Shown here one piece after another: positions 41,175 through 49,068 of a DNA stretch of 64,000 nt (position 1 is the first letter of the stretch; every line of letters begins with the position of its first letter). Location: assembly GCF_024168485.1 (NCBI RefSeq), contig NZ_JALJVY010000010.1:1-64000 (forward strand), given 5' to 3'. Below the pieces are notes generated by a model. That model was not told where the DNA came from. It ran no database searches and worked only from the letters and a program-made list of their open reading frames with translations. Both the position numbers and the translations under genes were made by a program. The DNA comes from Sphingobium sp. OAS761. GTDB taxonomy: Bacteria > Pseudomonadota > Alphaproteobacteria > Sphingomonadales > Sphingomonadaceae.

Positions 41175-41209
41175 CGGGCCGGTCAGGCGGGCCGGTCAGG
41201 CGGGCCGGT
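41175..41209. repeat. 13-bp tandem repeat, 2.7 copies
   Basis: CGGGCCGGTCAGG occurs at 41175-41187 and 41188-41200, with a partial copy (CGGGCCGGT) at 41201-41209. The stop codon of the nucleotidyltransferase gene (41196-41198) lies inside it, so a change in copy number could alter the very end of that protein. Confidence 0.75.
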
Positions 41210-42185
41210 GGCCCTTGCGCCATTTGGTCCAGAGGTGCCGGGCCAGCATCAGGGGCGGCATCCGCAGCCAGTGGGACCGCAGGTAGAAGGCGAAGACCAG
41301 CGCCTTACGCGTTTCGCGGCCCCAGCCATCGCGCGCCAGAAACCGGGCGACGATGATCCGGTCCCATGGGGTCAGGCGACTGCCCGCGCCATAAAGACCG
41401 GCCGCCAGCCGGCGTGCCTGACGCACATGGGCCAGCAGGCCGTGGCGGACCGCGCGTGCCTCCAGCCGCGCGGGATCGACATCGGCCAGCAGGCAGTGAA
41501 TGTCCCAAAGGTTGCGAAGCCCCCCCTGAAGGTCGCCGTCCGCCAGCAAATGGGCGACGGCGTGGACGACACGATCCTCCGGCGACAACACGGACAGCCC
41601 GCCACCGATGTCCACCGCGTCGGCGATCAGCGCCGCCGCGTCGGGCGTCGGGCGGGCGGTGAGTGGCAAGATGGTGTGATGCACGTCGATCATCCGGTCG
41701 CGTTCGGCATGGATCATCGGCGGCAATTCATGCATCCATCGCCGGTAATAGGCGTCGTCATAGGGATCGGGCTTGGCCCATTCCCATCCGGCCGCCATCA
41801 GCCGGGCCTCCACATCGTCCAGGGCATCGCGCGGGACGAGAATATCGAGATCGCCGATGAAACGCCCCTGCCCGGCCGCCAGCCGGGCCGCGACATAGGC
41901 CGCTCCCTTGAGCAGGACCGGGCGCACGCCGCTGCCATGCAGCGCGGCGGCCGCGCGATCCGCTTCCCAGAGCGCCTGCTGCGCCTCGCGCGCCGCGTCG
42001 GCCCGTGCATCCGCCAGGACGGGTCCGGCAGCGCCGGGGACGGGCTGCCCCTCCAGCCGGAAGGCAAGCGCGCCGGTCAGCCGTTCCGCCTTCGCGGCGG
42101 CGAGAAGCCCGTTCCATCCAACGGCGTTGAGCCGCGCCGCGCCGGCAGGATGACGCAGCACCTCGACCAGCAGAGCGGCACTCAT
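41196..42185 (-). CDS. Nucleotidyltransferase family protein (lasso-cluster type)
   Basis: The 329-residue protein fits the uncharacterised nucleotidyltransferase family PF14907. PVLLKGAAYVAARL and GRFIGDLDILVPRDALDDVE (about residues 105-124) supply the D-x-D metal-binding motif of a polymerase-beta-like fold, and RMIDVHHTIL, EDRVVHAVAHLLADGDL and GLRNLWDIHCLL give further family blocks. Its ATG at 42185 overlaps the HprK-like gene stop (ATGA). Such proteins accompany kinases and PqqD-like proteins in some lasso-peptide clusters, where they modify a peptide. The substrate here is unknown. Confidence 0.85.
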   Translation of the reverse strand: MSAALLVEVLRHPAGAARLNAVGWNGLLAAAKAERLTGALAFRLEGQPVPGAAGPVLADARADAAREAQQALWEADRAAAALHGSGVRPVLLKGAAYVAARLAAGQGRFIGDLDILVPRDALDDVEARLMAAGWEWAKPDPYDDAYYRRWMHELPPMIHAERDRMIDVHHTILPLTARPTPDAAALIADAVDIGGGLSVLSPEDRVVHAVAHLLADGDLQGGLRNLWDIHCLLADVDPARLEARAVRHGLLAHVRQARRLAAGLYGAGSRLTPWDRIIVARFLARDGWGRETRKALVFAFYLRSHWLRMPPLMLARHLWTKWRKGHRPA

Positions 42186-43045
42186 GCGCGCTCGTCCCAC
42201 AGTCGCTCCACCATCGCGATGGCTTCATCGCCCGAGGAGAAGTCGACCGCGCGCGCGGGAACGTCGGCAACGAAGCGGGTCAGTGCGCGGAAGCCCGCTT
42301 CCCCCGCCGCCACATAGTTGGTGGACGCCTGCGTCAGGCGCATGAACACCTCGCCCTGCCCCACTGCTCGCTCTTCCGCCCGGTGGCCGAAGCGTGGAAA
42401 CAGCAGCAGGCGCGGCGTCGCGCCCTCATCCATGCGGGAGACGGCGCCGTCGCGCGGGATCATGTGGCGAATGTCGCCCTTCGCGGTGGCGCGCAGCAAC
42501 GGCCCCATACGCGCTTCACCCACTGCGTCGGCCACCACATCTATCGCGCCATTCTTCAGGCTGACGAGACGGGGAAAGGGCAGGATCGCGCCGCATTCGA
42601 GGTCGAGCAGGGCAAATTCGTCGCCCATCAGCCGCCAGCCGCGTTCTCCCAGCAAGGCGGCAAGGGTCGATTTGCCCGAACCGGATTCCCCGGTCATCAC
42701 GAGCGCGCGCCCGTCCTTTTCCACGCTGGAGGCATGGAGTAACAAATGACGGCGCCAGCCCAGCGCCATCTGGAGATTCATGCCCATTTCCGCCGCCAGC
42801 AAACCATGGGCCAGACTCATCGGCGCGGCGTCGGCCAGGCCATGGTCGCCGGTGATGAAGATCGAGGGCCGAACCCAGCGACGCAGCATATTGGTGGGCT
42901 GTAGCCGGACCGTGAAATCGGCGATCGCGCCCTCGACCCGCGGATAGGCGGCATAGAGATGCGCGATCTGTGCCAGCGGCGCGCGCCAGGCCGACCCGAT
43001 ACGGAAAGTCGCCGGGCCGATGCGCAGGGTCAGCGCGTGCCTCAT
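42182..43045 (-). CDS. HprK-related kinase A
   Basis: The 287-residue protein resembles the C-terminal catalytic part of HPr kinase/phosphorylase. HASSVEKDGRALVMTGESGS (about residues 104-123) leads into the P-loop GESGSGKST (119-127), then WRLMGDEFALLDLE with acidic residues equivalent to the catalytic Asp region. It lacks the HPr kinase N-terminal domain, and no ptsH-like substrate lies beside it, so HPr is unlikely to be the target. It overlaps the PqqD-like gene before it and the nucleotidyltransferase gene after it by ATGA, forming one operon. I recall this as the HprK_rel_A family of an uncharacterised system. Confidence 0.85.
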   Translation of the reverse strand: MRHALTLRIGPATFRIGSAWRAPLAQIAHLYAAYPRVEGAIADFTVRLQPTNMLRRWVRPSIFITGDHGLADAAPMSLAHGLLAAEMGMNLQMALGWRRHLLLHASSVEKDGRALVMTGESGSGKSTLAALLGERGWRLMGDEFALLDLECGAILPFPRLVSLKNGAIDVVADAVGEARMGPLLRATAKGDIRHMIPRDGAVSRMDEGATPRLLLFPRFGHRAEERAVGQGEVFMRLTQASTNYVAAGEAGFRALTRFVADVPARAVDFSSGDEAIAMVERLWDERA

Positions 43046-43350
43046 GCCGGACGGACGAGCCCAAGCGACGCCAGCGCATCGAGATGCGCCGCGATTTCGG
43101 CCTCTGCCGCGTCGCGCGGACCCAGATCATAGTCGCGCGCCAGGCAGTCGTGCAGGTCGCCTGCCGTCATGGCAACGCCATCTGCCATACAGGCCAGCAA
43201 TTCGGGCACCGGGCTGATCACCATGTGCGTCTGGCCGGAGGCGTGGTGATACAATAGCGTCAGATCCTCCAGCGTGCACGGCGTCACCCGGTCCGCTGGA
43301 TCGCGGCGGTAGGTCTTTTGCGCGTCCACTGTCCCGAACCCCTGCTGCAC
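43042..43350 (-). CDS. PqqD-like (RRE-type) protein of the HprK-related system
   Basis: The 102-residue protein has a PqqD-like core: an N-terminal beta part (VTPCTLEDLTLLYHHASGQT), HMVISPVPELLACMADG (about residues 42-58), AGDLHDCLARDYDLGP and AEIAAHLDALASLGLVRPA with the usual C-terminal helix. In ribosomal-peptide pathways PqqD domains hold the leader peptide for a modifying enzyme. The start is a GTG at 43350 or a second GTG 7 codons later. It lies directly before the kinase gene with an ATGA overlap. Confidence 0.8.
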   Translation of the reverse strand: MQQGFGTVDAQKTYRRDPADRVTPCTLEDLTLLYHHASGQTHMVISPVPELLACMADGVAMTAGDLHDCLARDYDLGPRDAAEAEIAAHLDALASLGLVRPA

Positions 43351-43423
43351 TCACCCCGCTCTATCGCAAAAGGCGTAGCCAAGTGCCTAACGCATCAGGA
43401 CAAGGCTGGCGACCCGGCGCGAA

Positions 43424-43858
43424 TCAGCGCGGCATCTGCAAGGAAGCGTAACAGGTGAAGCCGCTGGTACCGCGCTGCAGGCGGCGGATATAATTCAGAT
43501 AGGCCTGGTTCTGATCGTAGCTGGTGCCCGGCAGCGGGCGGCCGCGCAACGCCTGCTTCACCTGTTCGCCGGTGAAGGAACGTCCGGTTCCGGGAAAGGC
43601 CCCCGGGGTGCCCGCCGGCACCAGCTGTCCGCTGGGCGCGATATAATTGCCGGCATGCCCCTGGTCGGGCACCGGAATGGTGCAATTGAGTACGGAAGCA
43701 GCGGTATTGGCCAGAGCGGGACGAATCGACACGATGGCCGATGCGGCTGCGGCGCCACCCATCAGCAACTGCCTGCGGGAAGGCATTGCGATATCGTCCT
43801 CGCACGACTGGCCAGCAGAGGGCAGCGGGCCTTCCTGTCCGTCAATCGGTTCGTTCAT
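43424..43858 (-). CDS. Tat-exported small protein upstream of the HprK/PqqD cassette
   Basis: The 144-residue protein has a twin-arginine signal (MPSRRQLLMGGAAAASAIV, residues 25-43) after a 24-residue acidic extension, which could be lost if the ATG at 43786 is used. The mature part (from about residue 52) has two cysteines (SVLNCTIP and GFTCYASL) and is rich in Gly, Pro and Thr: YIAPSGQLVPAGTPGAFPG. It is not recognised. It is transcribed in the same direction, 73 bases before the PqqD-like gene. It is the obvious candidate substrate or partner of that cassette, which is only inference. Confidence 0.7.
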   Translation of the reverse strand: MNEPIDGQEGPLPSAGQSCEDDIAMPSRRQLLMGGAAAASAIVSIRPALANTAASVLNCTIPVPDQGHAGNYIAPSGQLVPAGTPGAFPGTGRSFTGEQVKQALRGRPLPGTSYDQNQAYLNYIRRLQRGTSGFTCYASLQMPR

Positions 43859-43958
43859 ATCCGTCCTATCCGCATTGGGCTCTTGCCAAAACGTAATGAT
43901 TGCACGCTATTAGAGCCAGACATCGCAGCAATTGCGCGACAAATCCAGCGCGGTAACC

Positions 43959-45218
43959 ATGAATCGACTAAGTGCGTCCCAGATTACAGCGTCGCTGGCC
44001 ATGCTGTTGCTGGGCACCGGCGGCGCATTGATGCTGGGCGCCGATCCGCTGATGATCGCCCTGCCCGTCCTCGCCGGACTGGTCGTTCTCGTCATCACGG
44101 CCGGTGACGGCGGGAGGCATGCGGCCGAACCCGACCTGCCGGTCGATCATCCCGACCTGATCGATCATCCCGATTTTGCCAGCTTGCTGGAAGGGGTGGC
44201 CGACCCTGTACTGCTGGTGGAAAAGGGCCGGATCGCACGCGCCAACCGCGCTGCGCAGCGGCTTTTGGGCGCGCATATCGAAGGCGAGGACGCACGCATC
44301 GCCATTCGCCATCCCGCTGCCGCCGAGCGGCTGGCCAGCCAGGCACCGCTGGCCGAGGCCGTGACGGTCGAACTGGTGGGACTGGGCGCCCGCGACCAGC
44401 GCTGGCAGATGCGGGTGGCGCCCGTGGGCACGGTGGCGTCGATGCGGCGGCTGGTCCATCTGGTCGATCACAGCGCCACCAATGCCGCCGAACGCATGCG
44501 CGTCGATTTCGTCGCCAACGCCAGTCACGAACTGCGCACGCCGCTGGCCGGCATATTGGGTTTCATTGAAACGCTGGGCGATCCCGAACTGGGCAAGGAC
44601 GGCGAGACGCGTAACCGGTTCCTCAAGATCATGGACGGGGAGGCGCGGCGGATGCAGCGCCTGATCGACGACCTCATATCCCTGTCCCGGATCGAGGCGG
44701 ACAAATATCGCGCACCCGACAGCGCTGTCGACGTATCGGAACTGGTCGCCGAAGTTGTCAGCATATTCCGCGCCAGCCATGGCGAGCGCGGACGCGACGT
44801 CGAAATGGAGATATTGCCGGGGCTGGCGCCGGTGCGGGGCGACCGAGCCCAACTGTCCCAGCTGCTCCACAACCTGATCGGCAATTCGATCAAATATGGT
44901 CGCCCGGGCACCGCCATCCGCGTGATGCTGAACGAAGGACCGAGCGGCATGACGAGGCTGGTCGTCGCCGACGAAGGCGAAGGCATCGGCCCGGACCACC
45001 TGCCCCGGCTGACCGAACGATTCTACCGCGTCGATTCGGGGCGAAGCCGCGCCATGGGCGGCACCGGCCTGGGCCTGGCCATCGTCAAGCATATCGTGGA
45101 GCGGCATCGCGGCCGCATGGACATTGCAAGCACGCTGGGCAAAGGGACCACCATCACCGTCCTGATGCCGCCTGCCGCCGACGACGGTGTCGCAGCAGGC
45201 GCTTCAGCCGCCATATGA
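43959..45218 (+). CDS. phoR: Phosphate regulon sensor histidine kinase
   Basis: The 419-residue membrane kinase senses phosphate status through the Pst/PhoU complex and phosphorylates PhoB. It has two N-terminal helices (about residues 8-45), a short PAS-like region (LLEGVADPVLLVEKGRIARANRAAQR), the dimerisation helix with FVANASHELRTPLAGILGF (phospho-accepting His) and the HATPase domain: HNLIGNSIKYG (N box), VADEGEGIG, FYRVDSGRSRAMGGTGLGLAI (F and G2 boxes). The start ATG at 43959 is chosen over an upstream codon. It heads the pst locus, with Pho boxes between it and pstS. Confidence 0.93.
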   Translation: MNRLSASQITASLAMLLLGTGGALMLGADPLMIALPVLAGLVVLVITAGDGGRHAAEPDLPVDHPDLIDHPDFASLLEGVADPVLLVEKGRIARANRAAQRLLGAHIEGEDARIAIRHPAAAERLASQAPLAEAVTVELVGLGARDQRWQMRVAPVGTVASMRRLVHLVDHSATNAAERMRVDFVANASHELRTPLAGILGFIETLGDPELGKDGETRNRFLKIMDGEARRMQRLIDDLISLSRIEADKYRAPDSAVDVSELVAEVVSIFRASHGERGRDVEMEILPGLAPVRGDRAQLSQLLHNLIGNSIKYGRPGTAIRVMLNEGPSGMTRLVVADEGEGIGPDHLPRLTERFYRVDSGRSRAMGGTGLGLAIVKHIVERHRGRMDIASTLGKGTTITVLMPPAADDGVAAGASAAI

Positions 45219-45246
45219 CCAGGCCTCCGGACTTTTTCCTGGCCTA

Positions 45247-45279
45247 TGTCATCAAAGTGAAACGCGACTGTCACAAATG
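45247..45279 (+). promoter_or_regulatory. Pho box upstream of pstS
   Basis: Three 11-bp units, TGTCATCAAAG (45247-45257), TGAAACGCGAC (45258-45268) and TGTCACAAATG (45269-45279), put TGTCA-type half-sites at 11-bp phase as in PhoB-bound promoters. They lie 80-115 bases before the pstS start. Autoregulation of the operon by PhoB is expected from the known pst system. Confidence 0.7.
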
Positions 45280-45360
45280 CGCGACGAACCGCGACTAGGC
45301 CGCACATCCATGAGGGCGGCGACTGCATGCGATCGCGGCTTTAGCTGATTGGAGGTTTCC

Positions 45361-46416
45361 GTGAAAAAGATCGCCCTGCTCGCCATGACAGCCGCGAGTG
45401 TCTTCAGCCTTGCCGCGTGCGGCGACCAGTCCGGCGGCGGCGCCGGCGGCACGCGCGACCAGATCCGCGCGGTGGGATCCTCGACCGTCTATCCCTTCGC
45501 GACCGCGATCGCCGAAATGTTCGTGCAGGGCAATCCCGGCATGAAGTCGCCGATCATCGAATCGACCGGCACCGGTGGCGGCATGAAGCTGTTCTGTGCA
45601 GGCGTCGGCGCTCAGCACCCCGATATCGAGGATGCATCGCGCCGCATGAAGAAGTCGGAATTCGACCAGTGTCAGGCGAATGGCGTCAAGGACATCATCG
45701 AAATCCAGGTGGGTGTCGACGGTCTGGCGTTCGCTGAATCGAAGAAGGGCCCCGGCCTGAAGCTCACCCCCAAGATCGTCTATGAGGCGCTGGCCGCCAA
45801 TCCCTATGGCAAGGGCCCCAACAAGGCCCAGACCTGGAAAGATGTGGATCCCAGCCTGCCGGCGATCCCGATTTCGGTCTTCGGTCCGCCCTCGACCAGC
45901 GGTACCCGCGATTCGCTTGCCGAACTCATCCTGGAAAATGGTTGCCAGACCGACGAGTCGATGAAGGCGCTCAAGGAAAAGAACGAGGACGAATACAAGG
46001 CGACCTGCACCCGCATCCGCGAGGACGGCAAATATGTCGATTCGGGCGAGAATGACAATCTGATCGTCCAGAAGCTGGGCGCCAACCCCAACGCGGTCGG
46101 CGTCTTCGGCTTCAGCTTCCTCGAGGAAAACAAGGACACGTTGCAGGATGTCCCCATCAACGGCATCCAGGCGACCTATGAAACCGTGTCGACCGGTCAG
46201 TATCCCGGCGCCCGCCCCCTCTACATCTACGTCAAGAAGGCGCACATGACGGCGGTGCCGGGTCTTCAGGCCTATCTCGACACCTTCGCCGCCAACTGGG
46301 GACCGGACGGCGCGCTGACCAAGCGCGGCATGGTCGCGTCGCCCGACGAGGTGCGCAAGGCCAGCGGCGAAACGATCAAGTCGCTGACCGTGCTCGACGG
46401 CTCGGTCCTCAAATAA
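45361..46416 (+). CDS. pstS: Phosphate-binding lipoprotein PstS
   Basis: PstS captures phosphate in the periplasm for the PstCAB transporter. The 351-residue precursor has a lipoprotein signal ending in the lipobox SLAAC (about residue 20), then GSSTVYPFATAIAEMF (phosphate contacts), STGTGGGMKLFCAG and PSTSGTRDSLAELIL, the usual binding loops. Start: GTG at 45361 with GGAGG five bases before it. It is the first gene after the Pho box and is followed by pstC. Confidence 0.95.
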   Translation: MKKIALLAMTAASVFSLAACGDQSGGGAGGTRDQIRAVGSSTVYPFATAIAEMFVQGNPGMKSPIIESTGTGGGMKLFCAGVGAQHPDIEDASRRMKKSEFDQCQANGVKDIIEIQVGVDGLAFAESKKGPGLKLTPKIVYEALAANPYGKGPNKAQTWKDVDPSLPAIPISVFGPPSTSGTRDSLAELILENGCQTDESMKALKEKNEDEYKATCTRIREDGKYVDSGENDNLIVQKLGANPNAVGVFGFSFLEENKDTLQDVPINGIQATYETVSTGQYPGARPLYIYVKKAHMTAVPGLQAYLDTFAANWGPDGALTKRGMVASPDEVRKASGETIKSLTVLDGSVLK

Positions 46417-46426
46417 GCGAGAGACA

Positions 46427-47821
46427 ATGACCGGACCTGCCATCTTCCTGCTGCTCGCGGGCCTGGGCGCGATCGCCTGGGTCAGTGCCCGGGCGCGCGC
46501 CATGCGGCTTCAGACCGTCGCGCGCGCCACCGGGCGGCGCGATGCCGTCCACTCGCTGCCTGCCTATCACGGCTGGTATGTGGCGTTGTGGACGTTGATA
46601 CCGGCCGGTATCTTCCTGGCCGTGTGGGCCAATATATCGCCCGGCCTCGTCACGCAGGCGGTATTGGCGGATCCGGCCGCGCAGGCCCTGCCCGCCGACG
46701 GCTTCGTCCGTTCCGCCATATTGGGAGAGGCGCGGTCGATCGCCGCCGGGTTGCAGTCGGGCGCCTTCAATCCGGCGTCGCAGGCGCTGGTCGAACCCTA
46801 TCGCGCGGCCATGACGGAATATGGCGTCATCGGCGCGGTGCTGGCGCTGGTCCTCGCATTTGCCGGCGGTGCCTATGCCTTCACCCGCGTGCGTCCCGAC
46901 TTTCGGGCGCGCACTCGGGTCGAACGGCTGGTCATGGCGACGCTGCTGGTCGCATCGCTGCTGGCGATCGTCACGACAGTGGGCATCGTCGCGTCGCTGC
47001 TGTGGGAAAGTTTCCGCTTCTTTTCGATGGTGAACCCCATCGACTTCCTCTTCGGGCTGAAATGGAGCCCGCAATCGGCCGCCATGGGTTATGGCAACGA
47101 CGATGCCTTCGGCGCCGTCCCGCTGTTCTGGGGCACCATCTTCATCGGTGCGATCATCGCCATGATCGTGGCCATTCCGCTCGGCCTGATGAGCGCGGTC
47201 TATCTGACCCAATATGCCAGCCCGGCCGTGCGCCGCTGGATGAAGCCGATCCTTGAGGTGCTGGCTGGCGTGCCCACCGTCGTCTACGGCTATTTCGCGG
47301 CGCTGACGGTGGCACCGGCGCTGCGCGATCTGGCCGTAGCCGTCGGCATCCACGGCGCCTCTTCGGAAAGCGCGCTGGCCGCAGGGCTCGTCATGGGGGT
47401 GATGATCATCCCGTTCGTGTCCTCCATGGCCGACGACAGCATCGCAGCCGTGCCGCAGTCGATGCGCGACGGCAGCCTGGCGATGGGCGCGACCACCAGC
47501 GAGACGATCACCCGCGTGCTCATCCCCGCCGCCCTGCCCGGCGTCGTGGGCGGCGTGCTGCTGGCCGTCAGCCGAGCCATCGGCGAAACGATGATCGTGG
47601 TGATGGCGGCAGGCCTTGCCGCGAACCTGACGCTCAATCCCTTTGCCAGCGTGACCACGGTGACGACCCAGATCGTCCAGTTGCTGACCGGCGACCAGGA
47701 ATTTGACAGCGCCAAGACGCTGGCTGCCTTCGCGCTGGGGCTGGTGCTGTTCATCGTCACCCTGCTGCTCAACATCGTGGCCCTGCGGGTCGTGAAGAAA
47801 TATCGCGAGGCTTACGAATAA
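46427..47821 (+). CDS. pstC: Phosphate ABC transporter permease PstC
   Basis: The 464-residue protein is the long alphaproteobacterial form of PstC, with extra N-terminal helices and a periplasmic region (about residues 1-175) before the six-helix core. [20 protein letters not shown] and the EAA loop ([20 protein letters not shown]) identify a binding-protein-dependent permease. It pairs with PstA and PstB. The start is ten bases after pstS, and the stop overlaps the pstA start (TAATG). Confidence 0.94.
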
Positions 47822-49068
47822 TGAGTGCCGCAGAACGTCTGCCGACCGACTGGAAATCGCACGCGATGCGCCGCCGCATCGCCCGGCGCTATGCCGCCGA
47901 ACGCCGCTTCCGCCTGCTCGGCCTGAGCGCGGTGGTGCTTTCCGCAGCCTTTCTCGCCTTCCTTCTGGTGACGATGATGGGCAATGGCCTGCGCGGTTTC
48001 ACCCGCACGGAAATCGCACTGCGGATCGATTTCCCCGCGTCGCCGATGTTGCTCGATCCGAACGCTATCACCGATGCGGCGCTGGCCAACGCCAACCTGC
48101 CGATGGTGACGAACGAAGCCGCCAGGAAGGCGCTGGGCGCCGATGGCGACGCGCTGCTGTCGCCCACCGCCTGGGTTACCGTTCGCGATGCGATCAAGGC
48201 CGACCCCACCATTTTGAACCGCGCCGAGACGGTGCAGGTTCCCGCTTCGACCGGAATCGATCTGGCCGCAAAGAGCGAGGGATCGCCCGAGGCCGAGGCC
48301 GCCGTCGAGCGACTGGACCGCGCCGGTATCCTCACGACCGGTTTCAACTGGAATTTCCTGTGGTCCAGCGACGGAACCGATCCGACCCAGGTCGGCATAT
48401 GGGGGGCGTTCAAGGGTTCCCTCCTGACGATGCTGGTGACTCTGCTGCTCAGCTTCCCGGTCGGTGTGGCCACGGCGCTCTATCTGGAAGAATATGCTCC
48501 CAAGACATGGTGGACCGATATCATAGAGGTATCGATCAACAATCTGGCGGCCGTTCCGTCCATCATCTTCGGCCTTCTCGGCCTGTCGATCTTCCTCAAC
48601 TTCCTGCACCTGCCGCGGTCGGCCGCGCTGGTCGGCGGCCTGACGCTGGCGCTGATGACCATGCCGGTGATCGTCATCGCGGGCCGCAACGCCATCAAGT
48701 CGGTACCGCCCAGCATTCGCGATGCTGCGCTCGGCATCGGCGCCAGCCCGGTGCAGGTGGTGTTCCAGCACGTGCTGCCGCTCGCCCTGCCGGGCATATT
48801 GACCGGTACCATCATCGGCATGGCGCGCGCGCTCGGCGAAACGGCGCCGCTGCTGATGATCGGGATGCGCGCCTTCATCGCGACGCCGCCGGAAGGGATC
48901 ACCGACCCGGCTACTGTGCTGCCGGTGCAGATTTTCCTATGGTCCGACGAAGTCTCGAAAGGCTTCGTCGAAAAGACATCGGCGGCGATCATCGTTCTGC
49001 TGGTCTTCCTGCTGACCATGAACGGCCTCGCCATCTACCTGCGCAACAAATTCGAGAGACGGTGGTAA
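47821..49068 (+). CDS. pstA: Phosphate ABC transporter permease PstA
   Basis: The 415-residue protein has the long N-terminal periplasmic insert (DUF3333-like, about residues 60-170) seen in alphaproteobacterial PstA, between the first helix and the permease core. The core has [15 protein letters not shown] and the EAA loop ([20 protein letters not shown]), with [15 protein letters not shown] afterwards. It starts on the last base of pstC and ends six bases before pstB. Confidence 0.94.

Follow-up and report, generated by a model that had tools for sequence, protein, structure and literature searches.

A small Tat-signal protein is the constant genomic partner and a candidate client of an HprK-related kinase system in Sphingobium sp. 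OAS761 and other members of its phylum

We analyzed a window of 64,000 nucleotides (positions 1 to 64,000 of contig NZ_JALJVY010000010.1 from Sphingobium sp. OAS761), in which reading of the open reading frames (ORFs) revealed four minus-strand genes at 41196–43858. In the order of transcription they encode a small protein with a signal of the twin-arginine translocation (Tat) type, a PqqD-like protein, the HprK-related kinase A and a nucleotidyltransferase of the family PF14907. The Tat protein constantly accompanies the kinase system in the genomes, and the case for it being the client of this system is strong. We consider it reasonably likely that the locus encodes a pathway for substrate-guided protein modification, with the neighbouring Tat protein as its substrate, and by analogy to lasso peptides we infer a chemistry in which the kinase and the nucleotidyltransferase would modify the serine of a CxxS motif. 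Kinase and PqqD-like protein belong to the HPr-rel-A system, which is already known, and its client has apparently gone unrecognized; no description of this protein was found in the open-licence literature that we searched.

Co-occurrence of the Tat protein with the kinase

The kinase exceeds the cut-off of TIGR04352 in 45 of 149 sampled genomes of the window's family, the Sphingomonadaceae (family and class labels were inferred from loci with names). All 45 also possess the client, which was recognized by sequence search (E ≤ 1e-4) in 42 of them and by position in the remaining three, as G005, G085 and G099 harbor divergent clients at the expected place; the signal of the G085 client lies off the contig. 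By sequence search alone, no client was detected at E ≤ 1e-4 in the 104 kinase-negative genomes of the family, four of which gave weaker matches (E 0.003–0.01). The association of the Tat protein with the kinase is far beyond chance, with a Fisher p of 3e-39 for all 45 genomes or 6e-34 for the 42 found by search, both uncorrected for relatedness. It is also visible below the family level: the genera g22, g36, g51 and g69 each include one genome having both genes and one in which neither was found. Among the best 80 of 224 loci, hereafter called near loci, the client is present in 79, and the remaining locus is cut by the end of its contig. A second, weak client match in the window's own genome (G000:C1:17194) was rejected as spurious, as the genes there are different ones and no client-like frame is present.

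Across the phylum, the kinase exceeds the cut-off in 61 of 398 sampled genomes. The DNA around the kinase was read in each of the 61, and with the contig of G332 stopping at the kinase, 60 genomes were assessable. A small protein with an RR signal is found in all 60, and elsewhere in the phylum other RR-signal proteins take the place of the window-type client: 36 clients were recognized by the profile of a second client family (E < 1e-9), another 12 fall within the window's family, and position identified the remaining 12, G442 among them. All 36 genomes matched by the second-family profile at this threshold are kinase-positive. Since 27 of them had themselves supplied rows of the profile, its absence elsewhere is the telling part, and among the kinase-negative phylum genomes it matched solely G211, and only weakly (E 4.2e-4). 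The G211 locus (L216:2796–6853) is a related cluster: it combines a small RR-signal protein with a radical SAM/SPASM protein, an HprK-like P-loop protein and a PF14907 protein, and holds no TIGR04352 kinase over the cut-off.

That the Tat protein is the client had been put forward, as its own inference, in a preliminary description of this locus, and with 45 of 45 kinase-positive genomes in the family and 60 of 60 in the phylum it has become the best-supported part of that description. The neighbourhood comparison did not find the Tat protein to be absent from most genomes that have the other genes.

The client protein and its C-terminal motif

The client gene (43424..43858, minus strand) was delimited as an ORF and by its co-occurrence with the kinase and homologue alignments, and it encodes a protein of 144 amino acids. 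As described previously, it lies upstream of the other three genes on the same strand, and its Tat character follows from the pattern of its N-terminus: RR at residues 28–29, a hydrophobic stretch and the sequence ALA before N51 (predicted cleavage after ALA50) together read as a Tat signal. The predicted signal, called from conservation and profile similarity, spans residues 25–50 (43709..43786, minus strand), and this part of the protein may possibly also contain the region recognized by the PqqD-like protein. The signal pattern is present in 138 of 146 clients and in none of 17 control frames, a weak control given that about four of the frames are visibly non-signals and that the choice of clients favored the pattern. 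The preliminary description had counted two cysteines; the protein contains three (C19, C59 and C136), and the number two holds for the predicted mature part. Cys59 (43682..43684, minus strand) is invariant across 42 aligned clients of the first family, as are R28, R29, L32, P47 and A50. The rows of the alignments of both client families (n=42 for the first) were picked among motif carriers, and the invariance of the motif's C and S in them is partly by construction.

None of the 11 clients scanned (the window client and 10 phylum clients) exceeds any cut-off in Pfam or NCBIfam, and the window client had no convincing match in the PDB either by sequence (best E 0.047) or by fold (best E 2.3). 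Its predicted model consists of a small folded core, with blocks in residues 61–130 at a predicted local distance difference test score (pLDDT) of 75–92, and a motif-bearing tail with a pLDDT of 52–59. When compared as profiles, the two client families can be aligned solely over the signal and the first cysteine (probability 95, E 1.9e-8, in a comparison that did not include ordinary Tat signals). Hence, the likeness of their tails is known by motif and not by alignment.

This motif, C136-Y-A-S139 in the window client (43442..43453, minus strand), is the candidate modification site on account of its conservation and its occurrence across client families. An alignment of 79 first-family clients that were chosen irrespective of the motif shows at least 95% conservation of the tail residues S, G, F, T, C, A, S and Q. 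The codons of the tail vary while its amino acids are kept, as seen in 78 rows picked by the motif, i.e. all of these clients except the frameshifted L044. Across client families the C and S are constant, S or T precedes the cysteine and the aromatic residue is variable, the second-family rows being motif-selected. The strict motif [ST]C[WYFLI]xS[FLI] ends the client in 48 of the 60 phylum genomes, 47 of which were identified by script and one (G324) by eye. The client of G324 (L176) comprises nearly nothing but the signal and a short tail ending in SCLDSFNGL, a hint at the tail being the essential element.

A cleaner measure comes from a test in which frames upstream of the kinase were chosen by position and Tat-type signal alone, with four of 157 loci excluded for having fewer than 900 bases before the kinase. 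Such a frame is present in 133 of 153 loci and in 218 of 5828 equal-sized background intervals. The motif [ST]C[WYFLIM]xS[FLIVM] lies within 35 residues of the C-terminus in 103 of the 133 position-picked clients vs 4 of 4714 mechanical background ORFs; the locus set and the genome set overlap (e.g. L091/G075), and these counts are therefore not all independent. Among the position-picked clients, 20 of 93 from near loci and 10 of 40 from other loci are without the motif, and wrong frames were probably picked in 23 loci with a glycosyltransferase insert (see below) because the client there lies outside the examined interval. A separate count of 129 of 146 is biased, as the choice of clients favored the motif, and was not used. 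Inspection by eye of loci that do not have the C-terminal motif showed C[ST]xSG early in the mature part in L124, L125, L131, L137 and L138. Likewise by eye, the motif-less clients of L124, L125, L134, L137–L140 and L189 have in common a short [ST][PH]G stretch and, after it, aromatic residues, and several contain CxxS near the mature start.

The modification genes, their neighbours and related systems

The gene for the PqqD-like protein (43042..43350, minus strand) starts 73 bp after the end of the client gene, and co-transcription of the two is plausible. Its product of 102 amino acids is a putative PqqD-like peptide chaperone and predicted discrete recognition element (RRE) of the kind that acts on ribosomally synthesized and post-translationally modified peptides (RiPPs), with 70.4 bits on TIGR04353 (cut-off 35) and an E of 0.026 for Pfam PqqD. 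The model (pLDDT 88.9) has a predicted winged-helix RRE fold, and its best fold matches in the PDB are the leader-bound lasso B1 proteins 5v1v (E 9e-4, the sole match at E ≤ 0.001) and 6jx3. PqqD itself (5sxy) matches with a probability of 1.00, as does the winged helix of the NO66 hydroxylase with 0.99. The window protein thus shares its predicted fold with the lasso B1 and PqqD recognition elements and differs from them in sequence, the identity amounting to 17–22%. A profile search upstream of the kinase detected a PqqD gene in all 80 near loci and in 63 of the 77 others.

Where the operon is rearranged, client and PqqD-like gene tend to stay together. In G216, G170 and G271 the client is located on a separate contig and is adjoined by a PqqD-like gene each time, in G281 the PqqD-like gene is next to a client that is divergent beside the kinase, and in G040 the pair lies outside the transcription unit of the kinase. 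Client and PqqD hence form the usual unit, as would be expected if the PqqD-like protein binds the client. This pairing and the predicted fold support the role of presenter that had been assigned to PqqD. G328 (L215) possesses, besides a full operon pair, a second client with a weak PqqD-like gene (E 0.001) in a genome with 8% contamination; possibly two clients are served there by one kinase.

The kinase (42182..43045, minus strand, 287 amino acids) reaches 234.9 bits on TIGR04352 (cut-off 200), and its profile matches the HprK structures 1jb1, 2qmh and 1ko7 with a best E of 6.7e-5. The P-loop reads GESGSGKST, and G122, G124, K125, S126, T127, H104 and D142 do not vary among the 36 kinases aligned; H104, K125 and D142 are presumably the His, Lys and Asp residues of HprK-type enzymes. 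The nucleotidyltransferase gene (41196..42185, minus strand) encodes 329 amino acids when its start is taken to be the ATG overlapping the stop codon of the kinase, scores 167.2 bits on PF14907 (cut-off 31.2) and contains GDLDILV in its translation. It is found downstream of the kinase in 79 of 80 near and 64 of 77 other loci. ATGA overlaps connect PqqD with the kinase (kinase ATG 43045–43043, PqqD TGA 43044–43042) and the kinase with the nucleotidyltransferase (ATG 42185–42183, TGA 42184–42182). The preliminary description was accurate on this point, both in its three minus-strand genes with ATGA junctions and intact kinase P-loop and in its family calls, all of which exceed the curated cut-offs.

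Scores over both TIGR04352 and TIGR04353 assign the locus to the HPr-rel-A system, of which we take a PF14907 nucleotidyltransferase beside the kinase to be a defining feature. The names of these families, noted earlier as an uncharacterized system, state no substrate, and the window locus offers a candidate Tat client. The kinase is also related to the SynChlorMet kinase ScmC (TIGR04249, E 4.3e-5), yet it stays far under the cut-off of that family, and no radical SAM gene is among the genes scanned at the window locus. The closest chemical precedent comes from lasso peptides. According to the portions of PMC9266682 and PMC8498205 available to us, lasso precursors are phosphorylated on their C-terminal serine by a kinase of the HprK type, and in pseudomycoidin PsmN, an annotated nucleotidyltransferase, adds one or two hexoses, and not a nucleotide, to the phosphate. 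As far as these portions go, the window locus resembles the paeninodin and pseudomycoidin systems (PadeK/ThcoK and PsmK/PsmN) in combining an HprK-type kinase with a nucleotidyltransferase, the latter likened to PsmN by annotation, and those systems modify a C-terminal serine. The window client differs in carrying a Tat signal and a core that is predicted to be folded, and its serine lies inside CxxS and not at the very end. Lasso cyclase, B2-type protease and exporter, noted previously as missing, were not seen among the seven flanking genes, which are the only part of window and genome that was scanned for them.

Divergent from the client gene, a PhoR-like histidine kinase (43935..45218, plus strand) scores 295.3 bits on TIGR02966, below the cut-off of 334.2, and is a conserved neighbour that probably stands outside the system. 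Together with pstS-pstC-pstA it occupies 43935–49068, an arrangement present in most of the 80 near loci. By eye, no PHO-box was seen before the client in the window sequence. In 23 of the 80 near loci (20 Sphingobium, three metagenome-assembled genomes) a glycosyltransferase gene, e.g. L042:6494–7651, separates client and PqqD; both of the two copies that were scanned match family 4, and the copy in L044 is broken.

A proposed pathway and its alternatives

In the pathway that we propose, the PqqD-like protein would bind the Tat precursor in the cytoplasm, probably via the Tat signal region, the kinase would phosphorylate the CxxS serine in the flexible client tail, and the nucleotidyltransferase would extend the phosphoserine with a sugar, a sugar phosphate or a nucleotide. 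The finished client would be exported by Tat after its modification, and at the cell surface the product would probably serve the envelope or an exopolysaccharide. Tat transports folded proteins that have already been modified in the cytoplasm, and the Tat redox-enzyme chaperones of the TorD/DmsD type are small proteins that bind a maturing Tat precursor, to which the PqqD-like protein is likened by analogy only. We put forward more tentatively, as a possibility that we would not yet call likely, that this is a widespread proteobacterial pathway in which the Tat signal serves as the leader for a RiPP recognition element, and kinase and nucleotidyltransferase phosphoglycosylate the CxxS serine prior to export. 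The overall interpretation of the preliminary description is supported in part: the client and its presentation by PqqD gain support, and the phosphorylation and the product of the nucleotidyltransferase stay inferred.

Several observations weigh against this pathway or parts of it. The kinase-negative family genomes were searched by sequence only and the positive ones also by position, and a few divergent clients could thus hide among the former. The client frame of G049 is without an RR signal, and the window client is a putative Tat substrate by its motif only, as all Tat models remain under their cut-offs (best TIGR02811, E 0.055; TIGR01409 is not reached). In G007 (L158) the kinase match is split and the client tail lost, leaving both broken, and the client of L044 is frameshifted; these defects suggest decay or sequencing error. 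The C-terminal motif is absent from 12 of the 60 phylum clients. In G042 and G122, both from one genus, PqqD remains with the kinase and the client is located beside PhoR, and a PqqD gene could not be located next to the client of G228. The 14 of 77 other loci without a recognized PqqD comprise five with the client elsewhere or divergent, G040, one at a contig end, one with a kinase below the cut-off and six with motif-less clients of a third type, of which four (L137–L140) have an ORF of 69–92 amino acids in the place of PqqD. Among the 77 other loci, 13 showed no nucleotidyltransferase beside the kinase, and at least three of these 13 are cut short; client, recognition protein and kinase therefore look like the core. 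Mirror-tree analysis of 62 loci gave partial r values of 0.15 for client and PqqD (22 of 999 permutations), 0.14 for client and kinase (37) and 0.11 for client and nucleotidyltransferase (97), a weak signal that we do not use as support.

The enzymes might act on the client by a different chemistry, with the cysteine, threonine or tyrosine of the motif as the target, or with nucleotidylation that is not preceded by phosphorylation. The adjacent T and C are conserved as strongly as the serine and a nucleotidyltransferase is not beside every kinase, both of which fit this possibility; however, C and S are constant across client families whereas the S/T before the cysteine and the aromatic residue vary, and the lasso precedent is serine-specific in the available portions of PMC9266682 and PMC8498205. 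We regard such a chemistry as unlikely, while granting it an appreciable chance. A somewhat smaller chance falls to the Tat protein being a partner in the pathway rather than its substrate, for instance a periplasmic acceptor or scaffold, with the enzymes modifying another peptide or protein. The mature domains differ among clients, and 12 of the 60 phylum clients do not have the common motif, but the tail motif is common to several client families and client–PqqD pairs occur away from the kinase. Moreover, besides kinase, nucleotidyltransferase and PqqD, no gene cluster was found in more than seven of 20 loci outside the family.

The genomic surroundings give rise to two further explanations. 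Kinase and nucleotidyltransferase could make an activated sugar for an exopolysaccharide, the Tat and PqqD-like proteins being separate accessories. At least one gene of XrtA/PEP-CTERM exopolysaccharide type is present in 16 of the 20 non-family loci, the families having been assigned from two of these loci that were scanned and in which Stp1, Stp2, the XrtA amidotransferase, PrsK, PrsR, PrsT and a tyrosine autokinase each exceed their cut-offs. Within the family, XrtA over its cut-off is enriched in kinase-positive genomes (41 of 45 vs 55 of 104; Fisher p 4e-6, uncorrected for relatedness). The RRE fold and the resemblance of the kinase to HprK protein kinases point instead to a peptide substrate, and the client is retained even when unlinked, which renders the sugar explanation improbable to us. 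Finally, the Tat gene could be an unrelated neighbour held in place by phoR-pst synteny, as PhoR flanks the client in 75 of 80 near loci. Yet the client is kept where no PhoR was found (L108, L111, L119) and among different neighbours in the phylum and on other contigs, and no client reached E ≤ 1e-4 in the 104 kinase-negative genomes. Synteny with the phosphate operon was therefore rejected as the cause of the association, and we give it hardly any credence.

With the Tat protein as the client, a named system that is uncharacterized as far as our searches show, and whose kinase exceeds the cut-off in 45 of 149 genomes of the family and in 61 of 398 sampled from the phylum, gains a candidate substrate and one candidate residue within it. 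If the proposed pathway is true, it would connect Tat export with peptide modification guided by a leader and would constitute a new way of decorating envelope proteins, perhaps linked to exopolysaccharide.

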